Source: Eubacterium sp.
Lineage (GTDB): Bacteria > Bacillota > Clostridia > Lachnospirales > Lachnospiraceae
Direction of reading: 5' to 3'
NCBI GenBank assembly: GCA_017433825.1
Contig: JAFRGL010000017.1
Location: forward strand, 1 to 64,000
Length of the DNA stretch: 64,000 nt
Shown: positions 49,441 to 55,000 of the stretch, one piece after another
How positions within the stretch are numbered: position 1 is the stretch's first letter
Layout of the letters: each line of letters begins with the position of its first letter
Translations under genes and position numbers: made by a program
The notes under the pieces: generated by a model
Seen by the model: only the letters and a program-made list of their open reading frames with translations
Told to the model about the DNA's origin: nothing
The model's database searches: none

Positions 49441-50271
49441 ATGAACAGGGAAACTCTTTACCATTATACGGATTTTATGGCGCTTGACGGTATTTTAAGC
49501 AACCGTGAACTGCGGGTCAACAATGTGCTGAACATGAACGACGCGCAGGAAATGGAGCTTTTCATGACCGGTATTTTCAGGGCAGCCATAGAAAGGCTGG
49601 AGAAAAGCGGCAGGGAGGACAAGGCCCGGAAGCTTTCCGCCCTTTATGAAGAGGAGAAGAAGAAATTCTTTGAATACTCGGTCTATGCCGCCTGCTTTTC
49701 GGAATACAGGGACGACGCGGCCCAGTGGGACAGGTATGCCTACAGGGGCAAGGGCGTCTGCTTCGGCATGAAGAAGGCGATTCTGGAGAAAATGACCGGC
49801 GGCGCGGTATCCCTGCAAAAGGTTTTTTACAGGGATGACATGGATTCCCATCCGCTGGTGACGGAAATCTGCACCCTGGTGCAGGGCAGCGATGATGTTT
49901 CGGTGGAAAAAGGGCCGCTGAAGACAGCTGTTTTAAAGGCCTGGCAGAACTGCGCTTCCTTCAAGCATCCTTCGTTTTCCAGTGAGCGGGAGTACCGGCT
50001 GGTGGTCATGCCCTTCGAGGCAGAGGACTTTTCCGTAAAGCCCCGGTACCATGTGGCCAGGGAAAGAATCAAGAAGTATTATCCGCTGGACCTGCATGCC
50101 ATGTGCGTCCAGGCCGGTTCTTCCATCGAGGAACTGGTAACGGAGATCATCATCGGCCCGGAATCCACCCAGTCCATACCGATTCTTAAGGATTATCTGA
50201 AAGACATCGGCCTTCCTGCACTGGCGGGCAAGGTGGTGCATTCCGACTGTCCGTTAAGAAGCAAGATTTAA
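49441..50271 (+). CDS. DUF2971-family protein
   Basis: 276 aa. The start TLYHYTDFMALDGILSNRELRVNNVLNMNDAQE and the late FSSEREYRLVV match DUF2971, found singly or in defence islands, without a settled function. The layout HYT...L...NDxxE with a later E-R recalls ADP-ribosyltransferase-like folds, but this is inference. CSxY (CFSEYRDDAAQWDRYA) lies at about residue 80. Soluble, no signal peptide. GGGAG precedes ATG 49441; it is followed by the thioesterase gene after 8 bp. Confidence 0.8.
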   Translation: MNRETLYHYTDFMALDGILSNRELRVNNVLNMNDAQEMELFMTGIFRAAIERLEKSGREDKARKLSALYEEEKKKFFEYSVYAACFSEYRDDAAQWDRYAYRGKGVCFGMKKAILEKMTGGAVSLQKVFYRDDMDSHPLVTEICTLVQGSDDVSVEKGPLKTAVLKAWQNCASFKHPSFSSEREYRLVVMPFEAEDFSVKPRYHVARERIKKYYPLDLHAMCVQAGSSIEELVTEIIIGPESTQSIPILKDYLKDIGLPALAGKVVHSDCPLRSKI

Positions 50272-51254: not shown

Positions 51255-51283
51255 TTGCATTTTCGAAAAAACTGTAATATAAT
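51255..51283 (+). promoter_or_regulatory. Sigma-A promoter in a gene-free stretch
   Basis: TTGCAT and a perfect TATAAT are 17 bp apart. The next intact gene starts 287 bp further on, behind a terminator-like hairpin, so this promoter probably drives a short RNA. Confidence 0.65.
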
Positions 51284-51289
51284 CCGCTT

Positions 51290-51397
51290 TGCCAATTGAA
51301 TATGGCTTGTCATAAGCCGCTGTTTTGATAAGTACCGGAGGAAGATTTCTTCAGGAGAAGTCTGTCCTTTCGGCAGTTATCAAAGCAGCGGCTTTTT
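51290..51397 (+). ncRNA. Candidate small RNA or leader with terminator
   Basis: A promoter at 51255-51283 is followed by about 25 nt and then an 18-bp stem: AAGCCGCTGTTTTGATAA (51314-51331) pairs with TTATCAAAGCAGCGGCTT (51377-51394) with one G-U, then TTTTT. The 45-nt loop holds smaller stems (AGGA/TCCT). No reading frame is plausible. It may be an independent RNA of about 107 nt or a leader that controls read-through into the AAA+ gene at 51570. It does not match SRP, 6S, tmRNA, RNase P or a riboswitch that I can recognise. The rest of the gap (51398-51569) has a TTGACA near 51421 without a -10 and a GC-rich hairpin region near 51480-51520. Confidence 0.5.
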
Positions 51398-51569
51398 GCT
51401 GTGCTTTGAAGCCGTGCACCTTGACAACTTAATCCGCCGATACGTACGGAAGGGTGTCCGGGGAAGCCGCGCGATGATATGAGCGGGCCAAGGATCTTCC
51501 GAAACGGCCGGCGGTCATTTTTTCAGGACAGCGAACCAAGTATAATTAAAATACAGAAAGGCACAGCTT

Positions 51570-53456
51570 ATGACAAAATATAAAGAAATGTTAAACGGCA
51601 GACTGGTAAATGCGGCAGCCTTAAAGATTAAGCCGGACAGAGCCGCACGCAGCAGCGCAGGGGACTGCGGCAGGGCAAGTGAGAGATTTTTAAAATCCGC
51701 GGCAAATCTCCCGGGAAACGGCTTTTTAGGCTGGCAGATAGAGACGGGCAGGGACAATACGTTAATGACCGCTGCCTTTACCGGGACAGGCGTCAGGACC
51801 ATGGCTTCTGACTACAACTGGATTTTCCAGAAATGCGCGGAAGCGGGCAGCAGGCCCGCCGAAATGCTGAACGATTTATATGCGGACGGACGCAGGGTGT
51901 ATGTGCTCGTCTCCGGCAGCAGCCGCCTGGTGTCTGACATAAAGAAAAAAGCGGAACTGGAAGACGTCTTCGTTGATGTGGATTATTTCGACGAAGATGA
52001 CGGCGATTACTGTTCAGGCAGTTATTTCAAGGAAATGTTCGATATCCTGCAGCAGGAAGGCGCGGTTATCCGGCTGACGGCCGATAAGGTGCAGACAGAC
52101 GGAAACGGCCGGGGACGGCTGTTTATCAGTCTTCCGCAGAATATGAACCTGAGCCTGCGCACCGCCATTTCACTGGCATTTCCGGATATGTACGTGAAGG
52201 AGCTGCCGGAAGACGGCCCGGAAGACGCTGCGGCGGGCTGTATTTCCGAAGGGTTCTTCCTGGACAGTTTTGCCCGTTTCCTGACCATTTTAAGAAGCAG
52301 GGCGGTCATCCCCCTTACACCGGAGCGGCTTACAAAGATATCCATTGATGATATGGAATTTTCCGTGCGCACCTACAACTGCCTGAAAAGGGCAGGCATT
52401 CACACGGCCGGCCAGCTGCAGGAATTAAATGAAGAAGACTTAAGGGAAATCCGCAATCTCGGTGAAAAAAGCATTCTTGAAATCCGGGAGAAGCTGGAAG
52501 AGCTTGAAGCGCAGGTAGTGGAAACCGGGGAAGCGCAGAAAGCTTTGTCCTGCGGAGCGGAAGCGGAAAAAGAATGTGCAGACGCTGGATCGGAAGAAGC
52601 GCCGCGGTCCGCTTTCGACAGGCTGAACGGCCTGGTGGGGCTGGAAAACGTCAAGGAGCAGGTCCGGAAAATCTCAGCCTTTGCCAGGATGAAAAAAGCC
52701 ATGCTGCAGGACGGAAAAAACGGCATTTCCCTGGCCCTGAACATGGAATTTACGGGAAATCCCGGTACCGCCAAGACCACGGTCGCGCGGATTTTAGCGG
52801 AGATTTTTTACGAAACCGGCCTGCTTGCCGACGGAACCGTCGTGGAAGCCGGACGGGCTGACCTGGTTGCCAGGTACGTGGGACAGACCGCGGAAAAGGT
52901 GAAAGCTGTTTTCCGTAAAGCGAAAGGAAGGCTCCTGTTCATCGACGAAGCCTATTCGCTGTCCGAGAACTGGAAAGGTTCCTACGGTGATGAGGCGATT
53001 AACACGATCGTACAGGAAATGGAAAACCGCAGGGACGATACGGTAGTCATCTTTGCCGGATATCCGGAGGAAATGGAAGAATTCTTCGGCAGGAATCCGG
53101 GCCTGCGCTCCAGAGTGCCTTTTTCCATCCGCTTCTCAGACTATTCTCCGGAAGAACTGCTGCAGATTGCCGGCCTGGAAGCGGAGAAAAGAGGCTTTTC
53201 CTTAAGCCCGCAGGCAGAAGAAAAGGTGCTTGATATCTGTAAAGGCGTATCGGGCAGTCCCGCAGCCGGCAACGGCCGCTTCAGCCGGAACCTGGTGGAA
53301 AGCGCAGTGCTGAACTACGCGGTCCGGATATACGGTGCTGATAATGCGGACAGCCGGATGCCTCAGGAGCATATCCTGACCGAAAATGATTTCTCCCTTC
53401 CGGAAGGTTTTTCGGAAGAAAAAACAACCCGCCCCATCGGTTTTTGCGTAAACTGA
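51570..53456 (+). CDS. AAA+ ATPase (CbbX/SpoVK-like) with an RNA polymerase alpha-CTD-like domain
   Basis: 628 aa. The N-terminal 250 residues are not recognised; they include an acidic stretch (DVDYFDEDDGDY) and IRLTADKVQTDGNGRGRLFI. Residues 259-312 read as an RNA polymerase alpha C-terminal domain: FSVRTYNCLKRAGIHTAGQL and REIRNLGEKSILEIREKL, the two-helix-hairpin signature of alpha-CTD. A linker leads to a CbbX/SpoVK-type AAA+ module (about 349-600): Walker A GNPGTAKTT (396-404), Walker B LLFIDEA (D459, E460), and NPGLRSR with likely arginine fingers (513-515). It may remodel a transcription or DNA-bound complex; that is inference. A weak ribosome site (GAAAGG) precedes ATG 51570. It stands alone. 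Confidence 0.85.
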   Translation: MTKYKEMLNGRLVNAAALKIKPDRAARSSAGDCGRASERFLKSAANLPGNGFLGWQIETGRDNTLMTAAFTGTGVRTMASDYNWIFQKCAEAGSRPAEMLNDLYADGRRVYVLVSGSSRLVSDIKKKAELEDVFVDVDYFDEDDGDYCSGSYFKEMFDILQQEGAVIRLTADKVQTDGNGRGRLFISLPQNMNLSLRTAISLAFPDMYVKELPEDGPEDAAAGCISEGFFLDSFARFLTILRSRAVIPLTPERLTKISIDDMEFSVRTYNCLKRAGIHTAGQLQELNEEDLREIRNLGEKSILEIREKLEELEAQVVETGEAQKALSCGAEAEKECADAGSEEAPRSAFDRLNGLVGLENVKEQVRKISAFARMKKAMLQDGKNGISLALNMEFTGNPGTAKTTVARILAEIFYETGLLADGTVVEAGRADLVARYVGQTAEKVKAVFRKAKGRLLFIDEAYSLSENWKGSYGDEAINTIVQEMENRRDDTVVIFAGYPEEMEEFFGRNPGLRSRVPFSIRFSDYSPEELLQIAGLEAEKRGFSLSPQAEEKVLDICKGVSGSPAAGNGRFSRNLVESAVLNYAVRIYGADNADSRMPQEHILTENDFSLPEGFSEEKTTRPIGFCVN

Positions 53457-53515: not shown

Positions 53516-55000
53516 TCAAGGAAGGTACACTTCAGCTCCCGAAATTGCGCCGGCGTACCACAGGCCGTCCTGCAAAACGGCATAGCAGTAGACGGGGTTA
53601 TAGTTTTCATCCCTCGGGAGAACCGGGGCGGTGTAGGGATCAAAGCTGTCCTTCAGTTCGCCCGGCCAGACGATAAACCCTCTGATTTCACAGCCGGGAA
53701 ACAGTCCTGCAATGTCTTTGGACATGGAAGCCCAGGAGGAACCGGAGCCTTCCCACCATAAATCTTTCGTTCCTTCCCAGGGGAAGATTCCGTACCTGGT
53801 GAAAGTATATCCGGCATTTTTCATGTAAGGTGCTGCAAATTCCGCGGTAACAGGTTCATCAAGAAGTGTCCGGATCATGACCTCTTTGGAAGAAGAACCT
53901 GCGAAAGCCGTCATCTTCCGGTAACGTTCTCCCGGCGCCCAGTCGTCTCTGTTTGCGATTTTCTTAAGATACCTTACGCCGTATTCCTGATACAGCTGCG
54001 GCCAGGGTATCCGGGCGAAAAACTGCCGGACGTCCCTGGTGCCCAGCACATCTGCCAGAGCTTTGGCTGCTTCATCAAAGGAAGCGTAACCCGGCGCGTC
54101 CATTTCTTCGATGGTGAATTCGTAAGGAAGGTTATACAGAATGTTTTCAAATTCGTTCCGGAACGCTTTGGTTTCTTCCGCATCGGTCTGGTAAACATTT
54201 GCCGTATTTTCCGGCAGACCTCCGTCAGCCCTGATCCGGATGCAGGGCCGCACGCCGATATCGCGGCTGCTGACTTCCGCGCCCCAGGCGTCTGTACCGC
54301 CGTCATAATAGGTGCCCATGGCGTCCACATACAGAGCATACTCTTTATTTGCGGCGGCACCGGCTATCCAGTAGGTCGCGTAACCGGTGTATTGCCCGGT
54401 TTCACAGCCCGTAAGATAGGCGTGGCGTGTCGCAACGGCAAACCGCGCGCCGGCATCGGCCTGATACATCGTTTCCTGGGCGTCGGCACCTAAAAGAAAG
54501 ACATAATCATCCGTATCGTTTCCCCCGTCCGTACCGTAATAGTCATTGTTCCAGAAGCTTTGATGGGAAAGCAGGATCAGCTGTCTTTCTTCCTCCGAAA
54601 ATGCGTCCCGGTAAAAATCATTGTTCAGCCAGCTGCGCAGGGTGCAGGTTTCCCAGGTAACGCGGGTCTGTTCTTCGTTGAAGGGCACCGTATCCAGGCA
54701 GTATTCGGAAAACAGCGTCAGTTCGTTTCCGCCGGCGGACAGCACGATCCACCGAATCTGCTCCGGCCCGTCTGCGGCTTCCCCGTTCTGCTCCCAGGAA
54801 CCGAAAACCACGATATCGCCTTTCTGCGGAAGCACCTGCGGTTCTTCGGGCTCCTGCGAGGCTTCCCCGCCGGGACTGTACGATTCTTCTTCCACGTAAG
54901 ATACCGGCTGCGTTACCGCGGAACGTTCCTGCCTCTTTGCGCAGGCTGAGGTCAGAAGCATTCCTGCCGAAAGCAGAAGGCAAAGTATTTTTCTGCTCAT
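53516..55000 (-). CDS. Lipoprotein with DUF6273 domain
   Basis: 494 aa. The signal MSRKILCLLLSAGMLLTSAC ends in a lipobox Cys at 20. Residues about 60-250 fit DUF6273 (VVFGSWEQ...IRWIVLSAGGNELTLFSEYCLDTVPFN, then TLRSWLNNDFY), a family of surface proteins thought to be related to formylglycine-generating enzyme-like folds. The last about 220 residues form another domain of unknown type with several Trp. Extracellular, membrane-anchored. ACGGAGG precedes the start at 55000. It converges with the AAA+ gene. Function unknown. Confidence 0.8.
   Translation of the reverse strand: MSRKILCLLLSAGMLLTSACAKRQERSAVTQPVSYVEEESYSPGGEASQEPEEPQVLPQKGDIVVFGSWEQNGEAADGPEQIRWIVLSAGGNELTLFSEYCLDTVPFNEEQTRVTWETCTLRSWLNNDFYRDAFSEEERQLILLSHQSFWNNDYYGTDGGNDTDDYVFLLGADAQETMYQADAGARFAVATRHAYLTGCETGQYTGYATYWIAGAAANKEYALYVDAMGTYYDGGTDAWGAEVSSRDIGVRPCIRIRADGGLPENTANVYQTDAEETKAFRNEFENILYNLPYEFTIEEMDAPGYASFDEAAKALADVLGTRDVRQFFARIPWPQLYQEYGVRYLKKIANRDDWAPGERYRKMTAFAGSSSKEVMIRTLLDEPVTAEFAAPYMKNAGYTFTRYGIFPWEGTKDLWWEGSGSSWASMSKDIAGLFPGCEIRGFIVWPGELKDSFDPYTAPVLPRDENYNPVYCYAVLQDGLWYAGAISGAEVYLP

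Follow-up and report, generated by a model that had tools for sequence, protein, structure and literature searches.

A genuine RNA polymerase alpha-CTD fused to a SpoVK/CbbX-clade AAA+ motor in Eubacterium sp. and its relatives, with a candidate regulatory leader RNA

Introduction

Bacterial AAA+ unfoldases are usually steered to their substrates by degrons or adaptor proteins, and classical AAA rings of the proteasome type dock via C-terminal tails. The C-terminal domain of the alpha subunit (alpha-CTD), as part of RNA polymerase, grips DNA and regulators. The DNA considered here is a stretch of 64,000 nucleotides from Eubacterium sp. (contig JAFRGL010000017.1, positions 1 to 64,000), called the window below, in which an intact open reading frame (ORF) of 628 residues (51570-53456, plus strand) joins the two: a genuine RNA polymerase alpha-CTD is fused to an intact AAA+ motor and to a head of about 250 residues with no known relatives. 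The closest described systems, the SpoVK/CbbX/EccA clade, are dedicated chaperones with narrow targets, their variable N-terminal domains being the presumed recruiters of substrate (PMC10659427). Like them, the alpha-CTD-AAA protein has a motor of this type with GY at sensor-1, a sensor-2 Arg and a member-specific N-terminal part; unlike them, it carries an alpha-CTD, a private head and a GF tail that is rare outside the family and its sister group, and it falls below the curated cut-offs of all three named families. The alpha-CTD-AAA proteins are a new subfamily of the SpoVK/CbbX clade, and no alpha-CTD/AAA+ fusion was found in print by an open-access literature search.

The alpha-CTD and its DNA face

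The alpha-CTD occupies residues 254-311 (52329-52502, plus strand), where PF03118 (RNA_pol_A_CTD) matches with an E-value of 6e-23 and 80.8 bits against a gathering cut-off of 23.8. A search of its own genome at E 0.001 returned the C-terminus of rpoA as the sole other match (45% identity over residues 251-319), and a sequence search of the PDB with residues 245-320 placed RNA polymerase alpha-CTD chains on top (E 1e-16), including those of 1z3e and 3gfk, two complexes with Spx from B. subtilis. An AlphaFold2 model of the same residues, made from an alignment of 31 rows that included 30 of 36 alpha-CTD segments from viral contigs, reached a mean pLDDT of 87.0; Foldseek placed RNA polymerase alpha at ranks 1-6 (root mean square deviation 0.6-1.1; at best 0.6 with TMt 0.94), and the best 50 of 247 PDB structure matches were by title all RNA polymerase entries or RNA polymerase complexes. 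The preliminary description of this gene, which read residues 259-312 as an alpha-CTD, was therefore right about the domain and, within a few residues, about its limits, since the profile score and the predicted fold agree with it. It had also named what would speak against that reading, namely the lack of a profile or fold match or the loss of the contact residues; both matches were found and the main contacts are kept.

The residues of the DNA face in the window protein are R267, N270, C271, K273, N296, G298, K300, S301 and E304. In E. coli numbering, R265, K271, N294 and E302 are invariant in all 12 members of the family described below, and K298 is a lysine in 11 and an arginine in one. 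The remaining DNA-face positions used here are taken as further alpha-CTD contacts to DNA, and the region around position 287 is the activator-binding face. This last stretch has diverged from RpoA in the family. Published work places R265 and N294 in the minor groove and K298 and K291 on the backbone (PMC7822876); of these, K291 is not conserved among the alpha-CTD-AAA proteins. When eight DNA-face positions (265, 268, 269, 271, 296, 298, 299 and 302 in E. coli numbering) were compared with a consensus of 8 RpoA rows, 90% of cells agreed versus 46% elsewhere (permutation p 3e-4), and with polar positions only the figures were 90% versus 42% (p 1e-4), values that serve as a guide and not as a formal test because the members are mutually related. 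The domain therefore resembles that of RNA polymerase alpha in profile, fold and DNA-face residues and differs from it in the diverged region near 287 and in standing without the alpha N-terminal domain.

The AAA+ motor and its clade

The motor and its lid run from Walker A onward (52755-53351, plus strand), with PF00004 at residues 394-498 and AAA_lid_6 at 547-594. Walker A lies at residues 396-404, the pore loop at Y436-x-G438, Walker B at 456-460, the sensor-1 GY at 497-498, the Arg finger at 513-515 and the sensor-2 arginine at R573. All 12 members possess both Walker motifs, a Y-x-G pore loop, the sensor-1 GY, R515 and sensor-2, with Walker A reading GNPGTCKTT in one of them and Walker B reading IFIDEAY in one. 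The sensor-1 region reads AGYP throughout, GY at this place being a feature of the SpoVK/CbbX/EccA clade (PMC10659427). A candidate for the Asn that the clade carries four positions ahead of its first Arg finger is N509, found in every member, but position 513 is R in nine members and K in three, whereas R515 is invariant; in the sensor-2 region both R570 and R573 are invariant. The closest solved motors are CbbX (E 5e-52) and EccA1 (E 8e-43).

None of the curated NCBIfam cut-offs of the SpoVK, CbbX and EccA named families is reached: TIGR02881 scores 252.8 bits (E 2.7e-75; cut-off 422.95), TIGR02880 213.3 bits (E 4.3e-63; cut-off 459.25) and TIGR03922 190.6 bits (E 4.3e-56; cut-off 466.65). 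The earlier assignment of a CbbX/SpoVK-type motor with intact Walker and arginine-finger motifs is borne out by the Walker motifs, the Arg-finger region and sensor-2.

The head and the linkers

The head covers residues 1-253 (51570-52328, plus strand), of which L47, W84, F86, A90 and Y111 are invariant in the 12 members. It has no credible Pfam match in the eight members scanned (best E 0.014, in a single member and to an unrelated viral family) and nothing related to it among solved structures (the best match, at E 0.037, is a capsid protein), in agreement with the preliminary description, which had called it unknown. In 200 genomes of the family, no other protein contained the head at E 0.001, the five matches being already-known members. 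Mean pairwise identity within the alpha-CTD-AAA family falls from 0.58 in the motor and 0.48 in the alpha-CTD to 0.23 in the head and 0.17 in the linker that follows the alpha-CTD. On both sides of the alpha-CTD the flanking stretches vary in length among members, from 13 to 53 and from 13 to 69 residues, as would be expected of a tethered arm.

Distribution and origin

Twelve full-length members with head, alpha-CTD and motor occur in the sampled genomes, spread over four families and two classes of one phylum: the window gene, L049 from the same genus (62% identity), L050-L055 from the same family, L172, L173 and L174 from the same class and L175 from another class of the phylum. Since the fusion recurs in 12 genomes, it is no assembly artefact. 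In overlapping samples, each count including the genome of the window, full-length members were found in 7 of 397 family genomes (of 22 passing E 1e-60, the remaining 15 had no alpha-CTD wherever the ORF was readable), in 3 of 392 order genomes (36 pass E 1e-80, the remaining 33 matching only from model position 285 on), in 4 of 371 class genomes and in 2 of 378 phylum genomes. A profile of 8 RpoA C-termini detected the alpha-CTD in 8 of 39 motor ORFs, all of them of this family; 7 of the 39 were cut by the end of the fetched stretch.

On a quick LG+G4 tree of the AAA domain only (142 rows), the 12 members form one clade (SH-aLRT 99), and the fusion looks single in origin for that reason. The neighbouring clade is a sister group of CbbX-like ORFs, mostly of 670-790 residues, of which only 6 of 37 have two motor domains by the motor profile; none has shown an alpha-CTD (L028-L045, L059-L075, L091, L092, L094, L098). 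The single clade, together with a head found only in known members, indicates that head, alpha-CTD and motor travel as one unit with a patchy distribution.

The C-terminal GF tail

The protein ends in an I-G-F motif (residues 623-625; 53436-53444, plus strand) followed by three further residues. In the alignment of the 12 members, invariance ends with G624 and F625, which follow a variable stretch; the endings are IGF in nine members, MGF in two and YGF in one, with 1 to 5 residues behind them. Near the C-terminus, [LIVMFY]-G-F is also present in 36 of 37 complete ORFs of the sister group, the sole exception being a frame of 226 residues that, from its match, seems to lack the motor end. The tail thus occurs in 48 of the 49 complete ORFs of family and sister group, compared with 8 of 83 other rows, six of which are first-domain rows of sister-group proteins (leaving 2 of 77 ORFs), and with a background of 2 in 519 ORFs (at least 200 residues, without a motor-profile match, from all loci fetched by then).

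Clp ATPases enter the hydrophobic pockets of ClpP by a motif (L/I/V)-G-(F/L) (PMC8745299), which in its strict form is present in 9 of 12 members, including the IGF of the window protein. ClpP and ClpX were each found in all 12 host genomes, and the loops of the host ClpX proteins (IGF in five, MGF in four, LGF, YGF and FGF in one each) cover a range resembling that of the tails. The alpha-CTD-AAA proteins thus share with ClpX, ClpA and ClpC a hydrophobic-G-F tripeptide and a pore-loop motor. Judged from these motifs, docking to ClpP through the GF tail is plausible, at close to an even chance; the literature search found no link between ClpP and CbbX-type motors in print. A second ClpX-like gene is present in 6 of the 12 member genomes (G000:C10:19566-20879 and five others).

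The leader RNA

Upstream of the gene, on the plus strand, a likely promoter read from the sequence comprises TTGCAT (51255-51260), a 17-base spacer and TATAAT (51278-51283); both boxes recur in L049, and the pair is not among the three sites returned by a consensus promoter scan. It is followed by a long terminator-like hairpin (51314-51397, plus strand; arms 51314-51331 and 51377-51394, U-run 51393-51397), by a strand (51398-51407, plus) that in the fold pairs with 51558-51567 on the same strand, a segment adjoining and overlapping the ribosome-binding site, and by a structured core (51418-51516, plus strand; model R1) with a conserved 5' strand, a long covarying stem, a GG/AA internal loop and an inner hairpin that by eye resembles a kink-turn. 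The fold of 51255-51570 has a z-score of -4.9. With a criterion chosen only after the folds were known (-25 kcal/mol or stronger, at a T-run, at most 420 bases upstream), such a hairpin precedes 11 of 12 members, being missed in L175, compared with 20 of 124 control ORFs.

The upstream regions of the window gene and L049 share the promoter-like pair, the long U-run hairpin and further stems, and a sequence-only profile of these two leaders picks out the corresponding site upstream of each of the ten remaining members: L055 (E 2e-14), L054 (6e-14), L053 (4e-11), L050 and L174 (6e-10 each), L175 (3e-9), L052 (2e-7), L051 (5e-7), L172 (2.5e-4) and L173 (0.1). Its only further matches up to E 10, among all loci then fetched, were repeat copies of the same loci and the opposite strand of the long hairpin. 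Strands from the same leader pair better on average than strands mixed between leaders, both where the ribosome-binding site would be masked (-14.1 vs -9.6 kcal/mol, 12 members) and in the long inner stem (-17.3 vs -10.0 kcal/mol, 11 members, L173 not being delimited), with 0 of 20000 permutations reaching the observed value in either case; no foreign strand pairs better than a leader's own in 4 of 12 and 5 of 11 cases, respectively. Both tests are weakened in that the segments were cut after the folds had been seen, the start of L054 was placed two codons too far upstream and an insertion in the L050 stem was overlooked; with L052 and L054 removed the result stays (-14.2 vs -9.5 and -17.6 vs -10.0).

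In a structural alignment of the 12 leaders, fitted to a structure drawn from L054, 80.1% of 281 cells are paired and covariation is 0.339 versus 0.182 in shuffled alignments (0 of 500) and at most 0.093 in slid ones; an unfitted alignment of 10 leaders gives 0.276 versus 0.187 shuffled and at most 0.107 slid. Model R1 found 12 places in 608,510 bases, namely the 10 seeds, the non-seed L050 (E 2e-4) and, weakly, L173 (E 0.32), the loci of the sister group being represented there by short upstream stretches only; a further 532,993 bases gave zero matches. A viral contig (L226) that matched the conserved leader string was set aside as a probable chance match, lying inside a phage coding gene with R1 at chance level (E 0.043 and 0.22), and distant blastn of the leader against plasmids gave zero matches. 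No Rfam family matched the window at its gathering score (best E on the leader 0.14), and no such RNA was found in the open-access literature. A conserved, covarying leader ahead of 12 genes that fits no Rfam family is a candidate for a new gene-linked regulatory RNA, and its closing stem is predicted to hide the ribosome-binding site. In having a conserved covarying core closed by such a sequestering stem it is like translational riboswitches and cis-regulatory leaders; unlike these, it has no Rfam family, and its terminator-like hairpin precedes the core instead of following it.

A proposed mechanism and its alternatives

The explanation we favor, tentatively and at a little under an even chance, is that of a threading unfoldase which reaches DNA through its alpha-CTD, hands its target to ClpP and is throttled by its leader RNA. 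What the sequences show directly is the domain make-up, its recurrence and apparent single origin, a conserved DNA face and pore loop, a common tail motif and a leader with covariation. The protein, an unfoldase of the SpoVK/CbbX/EccA clade, would assemble into a ring, presumably a hexamer, with the alpha-CTD on flexible linkers as a targeting arm, so that up to six alpha-CTDs per ring might grip the minor groove of A/T-rich, UP-element-like DNA. A recruiter of this kind with an intact DNA face on flexible linkers favors A/T-rich DNA as the place of recruitment, and a regulator normally bound by the alpha-CTD, such as Spx, would be the second choice. The motor would then pull a protein located at that DNA through its pore by means of the conserved Y-x-G loop, which predicts protein and not DNA as the substrate. 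Placed where the substrate leaves the ring, the [I/M/Y]-G-F tails would dock in hydrophobic pockets on a second ring, which is most probably ClpP; the GF tail thus predicts a hand-over, and the target would be degraded and not merely remodelled. Production may be throttled by the structured leader hiding the ribosome-binding site. Less probable, and rather doubtful as a whole, is the more specific version in which the protein is a DNA-addressed ClpP protease that reads UP elements, plugs into ClpP with its GF tails and clears proteins from promoters or A/T-rich sites under a new RNA switch. The preliminary description had suggested a remodeler docking on polymerase or DNA; the genuine alpha-CTD with its main DNA contacts stands, and docking on polymerase is now a less direct reading than docking on DNA or on a regulator. 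That suggestion was reasonable; the GF tail and the leader RNA, both absent from the preliminary description, alter the overall view.

Several observations weigh against the favored explanation. Some DNA-face residues are lost in part of the family (N268 in 2 of 12 members, C269 in 2, S299 in 4 and G296 in 1), and the alpha-CTD also binds proteins, so that a conserved face is no proof of DNA binding. The plug of Clp ATPases lies in a protruding internal loop, whereas here the tripeptide stands at the C-terminus of a motor of the classical AAA type; a motif of three residues is short, the first residue of the tail and that of the host ClpX loop do not vary together by genome, and the available text of PMC10659427 has its authors reporting no evidence of peptidase association for the SpoVK/CbbX/EccA clade. 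The flanks of the 11 other members contain no conserved neighbour or operon partner that would indicate a target. RNAalifold alone recovers the inner hairpin of the leader but not the long stem, its consensus being weak (-1.67 kcal/mol) and including an alternative CCUUG:CAAGG pairing, either a pseudoknot or a competitor of the drawn structure. The single-sequence AlphaFold2 model of the full-length protein (pLDDT 34) was unusable for the ring and the head and was discarded.

If the ClpP step is dropped, the protein would be a dedicated chaperone that remodels and releases one DNA-bound or transcription-linked protein, its GF tail serving the ring or another partner. This is possible, though on the doubtful side: the nearest motors of solved structure are those of CbbX and EccA1, the tail lies outside the usual loop position, and the characterized members of the clade act as dedicated chaperones, CbbX on rubisco and SpoVK on MurG (PMC10659427). 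Against such a chaperone stands a tail present in 48 of the 49 complete family and sister ORFs and in only 2 of the 77 outside, with a range like that of the host ClpX loops. The alpha-CTD might instead be a bait that binds no DNA and captures regulators (the Spx family, response regulators), which the motor would strip or destroy to reset transcription. Y263 of B. subtilis alpha belongs to the Spx contact (PMC2801614), and the corresponding position, Y269 here, is Y in 10 of 12 members and F in two; however, the helix of this contact also bears DNA contacts, so its conservation cannot separate the two roles. ArsC/Spx-fold genes (PF03960) occur in 10 of 12 host genomes, but these matches pool Spx with ArsC and were not found in the other two (G1000, G1034), and the bait is on balance unlikely.

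It is more improbable still that the alpha-CTD is merely a structural helix-hairpin spacer or a generic nucleic-acid binder, perhaps acting on its own leader RNA. Helix-hairpin domains are widely reused, the segment also matches PF14520 HHH_5 weakly (E 0.048), and a conserved leader RNA does lie upstream of the same genes. The selectively kept DNA-face residues would, however, be needless in a spacer, and their retention also makes the generic helix-hairpin DNA binder, which the preliminary description had offered as its alternative, less likely.

Genomic setting and other alpha-CTD proteins

In the window, the gene is preceded by a DUF2971 protein gene (49441-50268, plus strand), a relative of which also lies near the alpha-CTD-AAA gene in L049, and is followed by a gene for a DUF6273 protein with a lipoprotein-like start (53519-55000, minus strand). 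The neighborhood survey proposed in the preliminary description covered flanks of 11-20 kb for each of the 11 other members, some cut by contig ends, and came back without a partner gene: common flanking genes were seen mainly between close relatives (L051/L052, L053/L054, window/L049), the other matches being scattered (by reading, ABC transporters, cell-surface repeat proteins, two-component genes and one rubredoxin-like pair). With no operon partner shared across members, guilt by association was abandoned. A defense-system reading was likewise dropped, since a PADLOC scan of the alpha-CTD-AAA protein alone gave only weak AAA matches (IetA, E 6.2e-7) or PglW over residues 258-329 (E 2.6e-5), which cover the alpha-CTD and the stretch behind it. 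As for mobile carriage, 272 plasmid records match, none over 80% of the protein, and 0 of 36 alpha-CTD ORFs from viral contigs match the motor profile at E 10 or below. One scan of genome contigs gave a single relative with the motor only (L022).

Other proteins bearing an alpha-CTD were met in the searches. Among 10 proteins scanned from the 36 viral-contig alpha-CTD loci, six phage-contig proteins (IMG/VR; L177, L184, L190, L181, L187 and L206) combine sigma-70 region 4 (PF04545) with an alpha-CTD and appear to be stand-alone promoter readers, the last three with an additional Cro/C1-type helix-turn-helix. L205:2980-6174 and L207:2980-6174 are frames of 1065 residues that run to the end of the fetched stretch with an alpha-CTD at the start, L205 having two matched stretches. 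Directly behind a two-motor CbbX-like gene, the ORF L093:3875-4381 (168 residues, with a helix-turn-helix-like start) gives a weak match (35 bits) to the alpha-CTD portion of the family profile and none to the RpoA-CTD profile. In 61 related genomes, further alpha-CTD frames outside this family and differing in size from RpoA are G008:C61:11005, G034:C22:7199, G014:C14:14745, G008:C29:44827 and G051:C48:20868.

Significance

If the favored explanation is true, the built-in alpha-CTD would couple the unfolding of proteins directly to transcription factors or promoter DNA, and the motor may remove proteins at chosen places on the DNA. The leader RNA can be tested in its own right and gives a hint as to the conditions under which the motor is required. 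The GF tail, being common to the sister group, leads to the concrete prediction that ClpP may be the partner of motors to which no peptidase has so far been assigned; were the protein indeed a DNA-addressed ClpP protease, the CbbX-like sister group with the same tail would represent a whole unrecognized group of ClpP partners.

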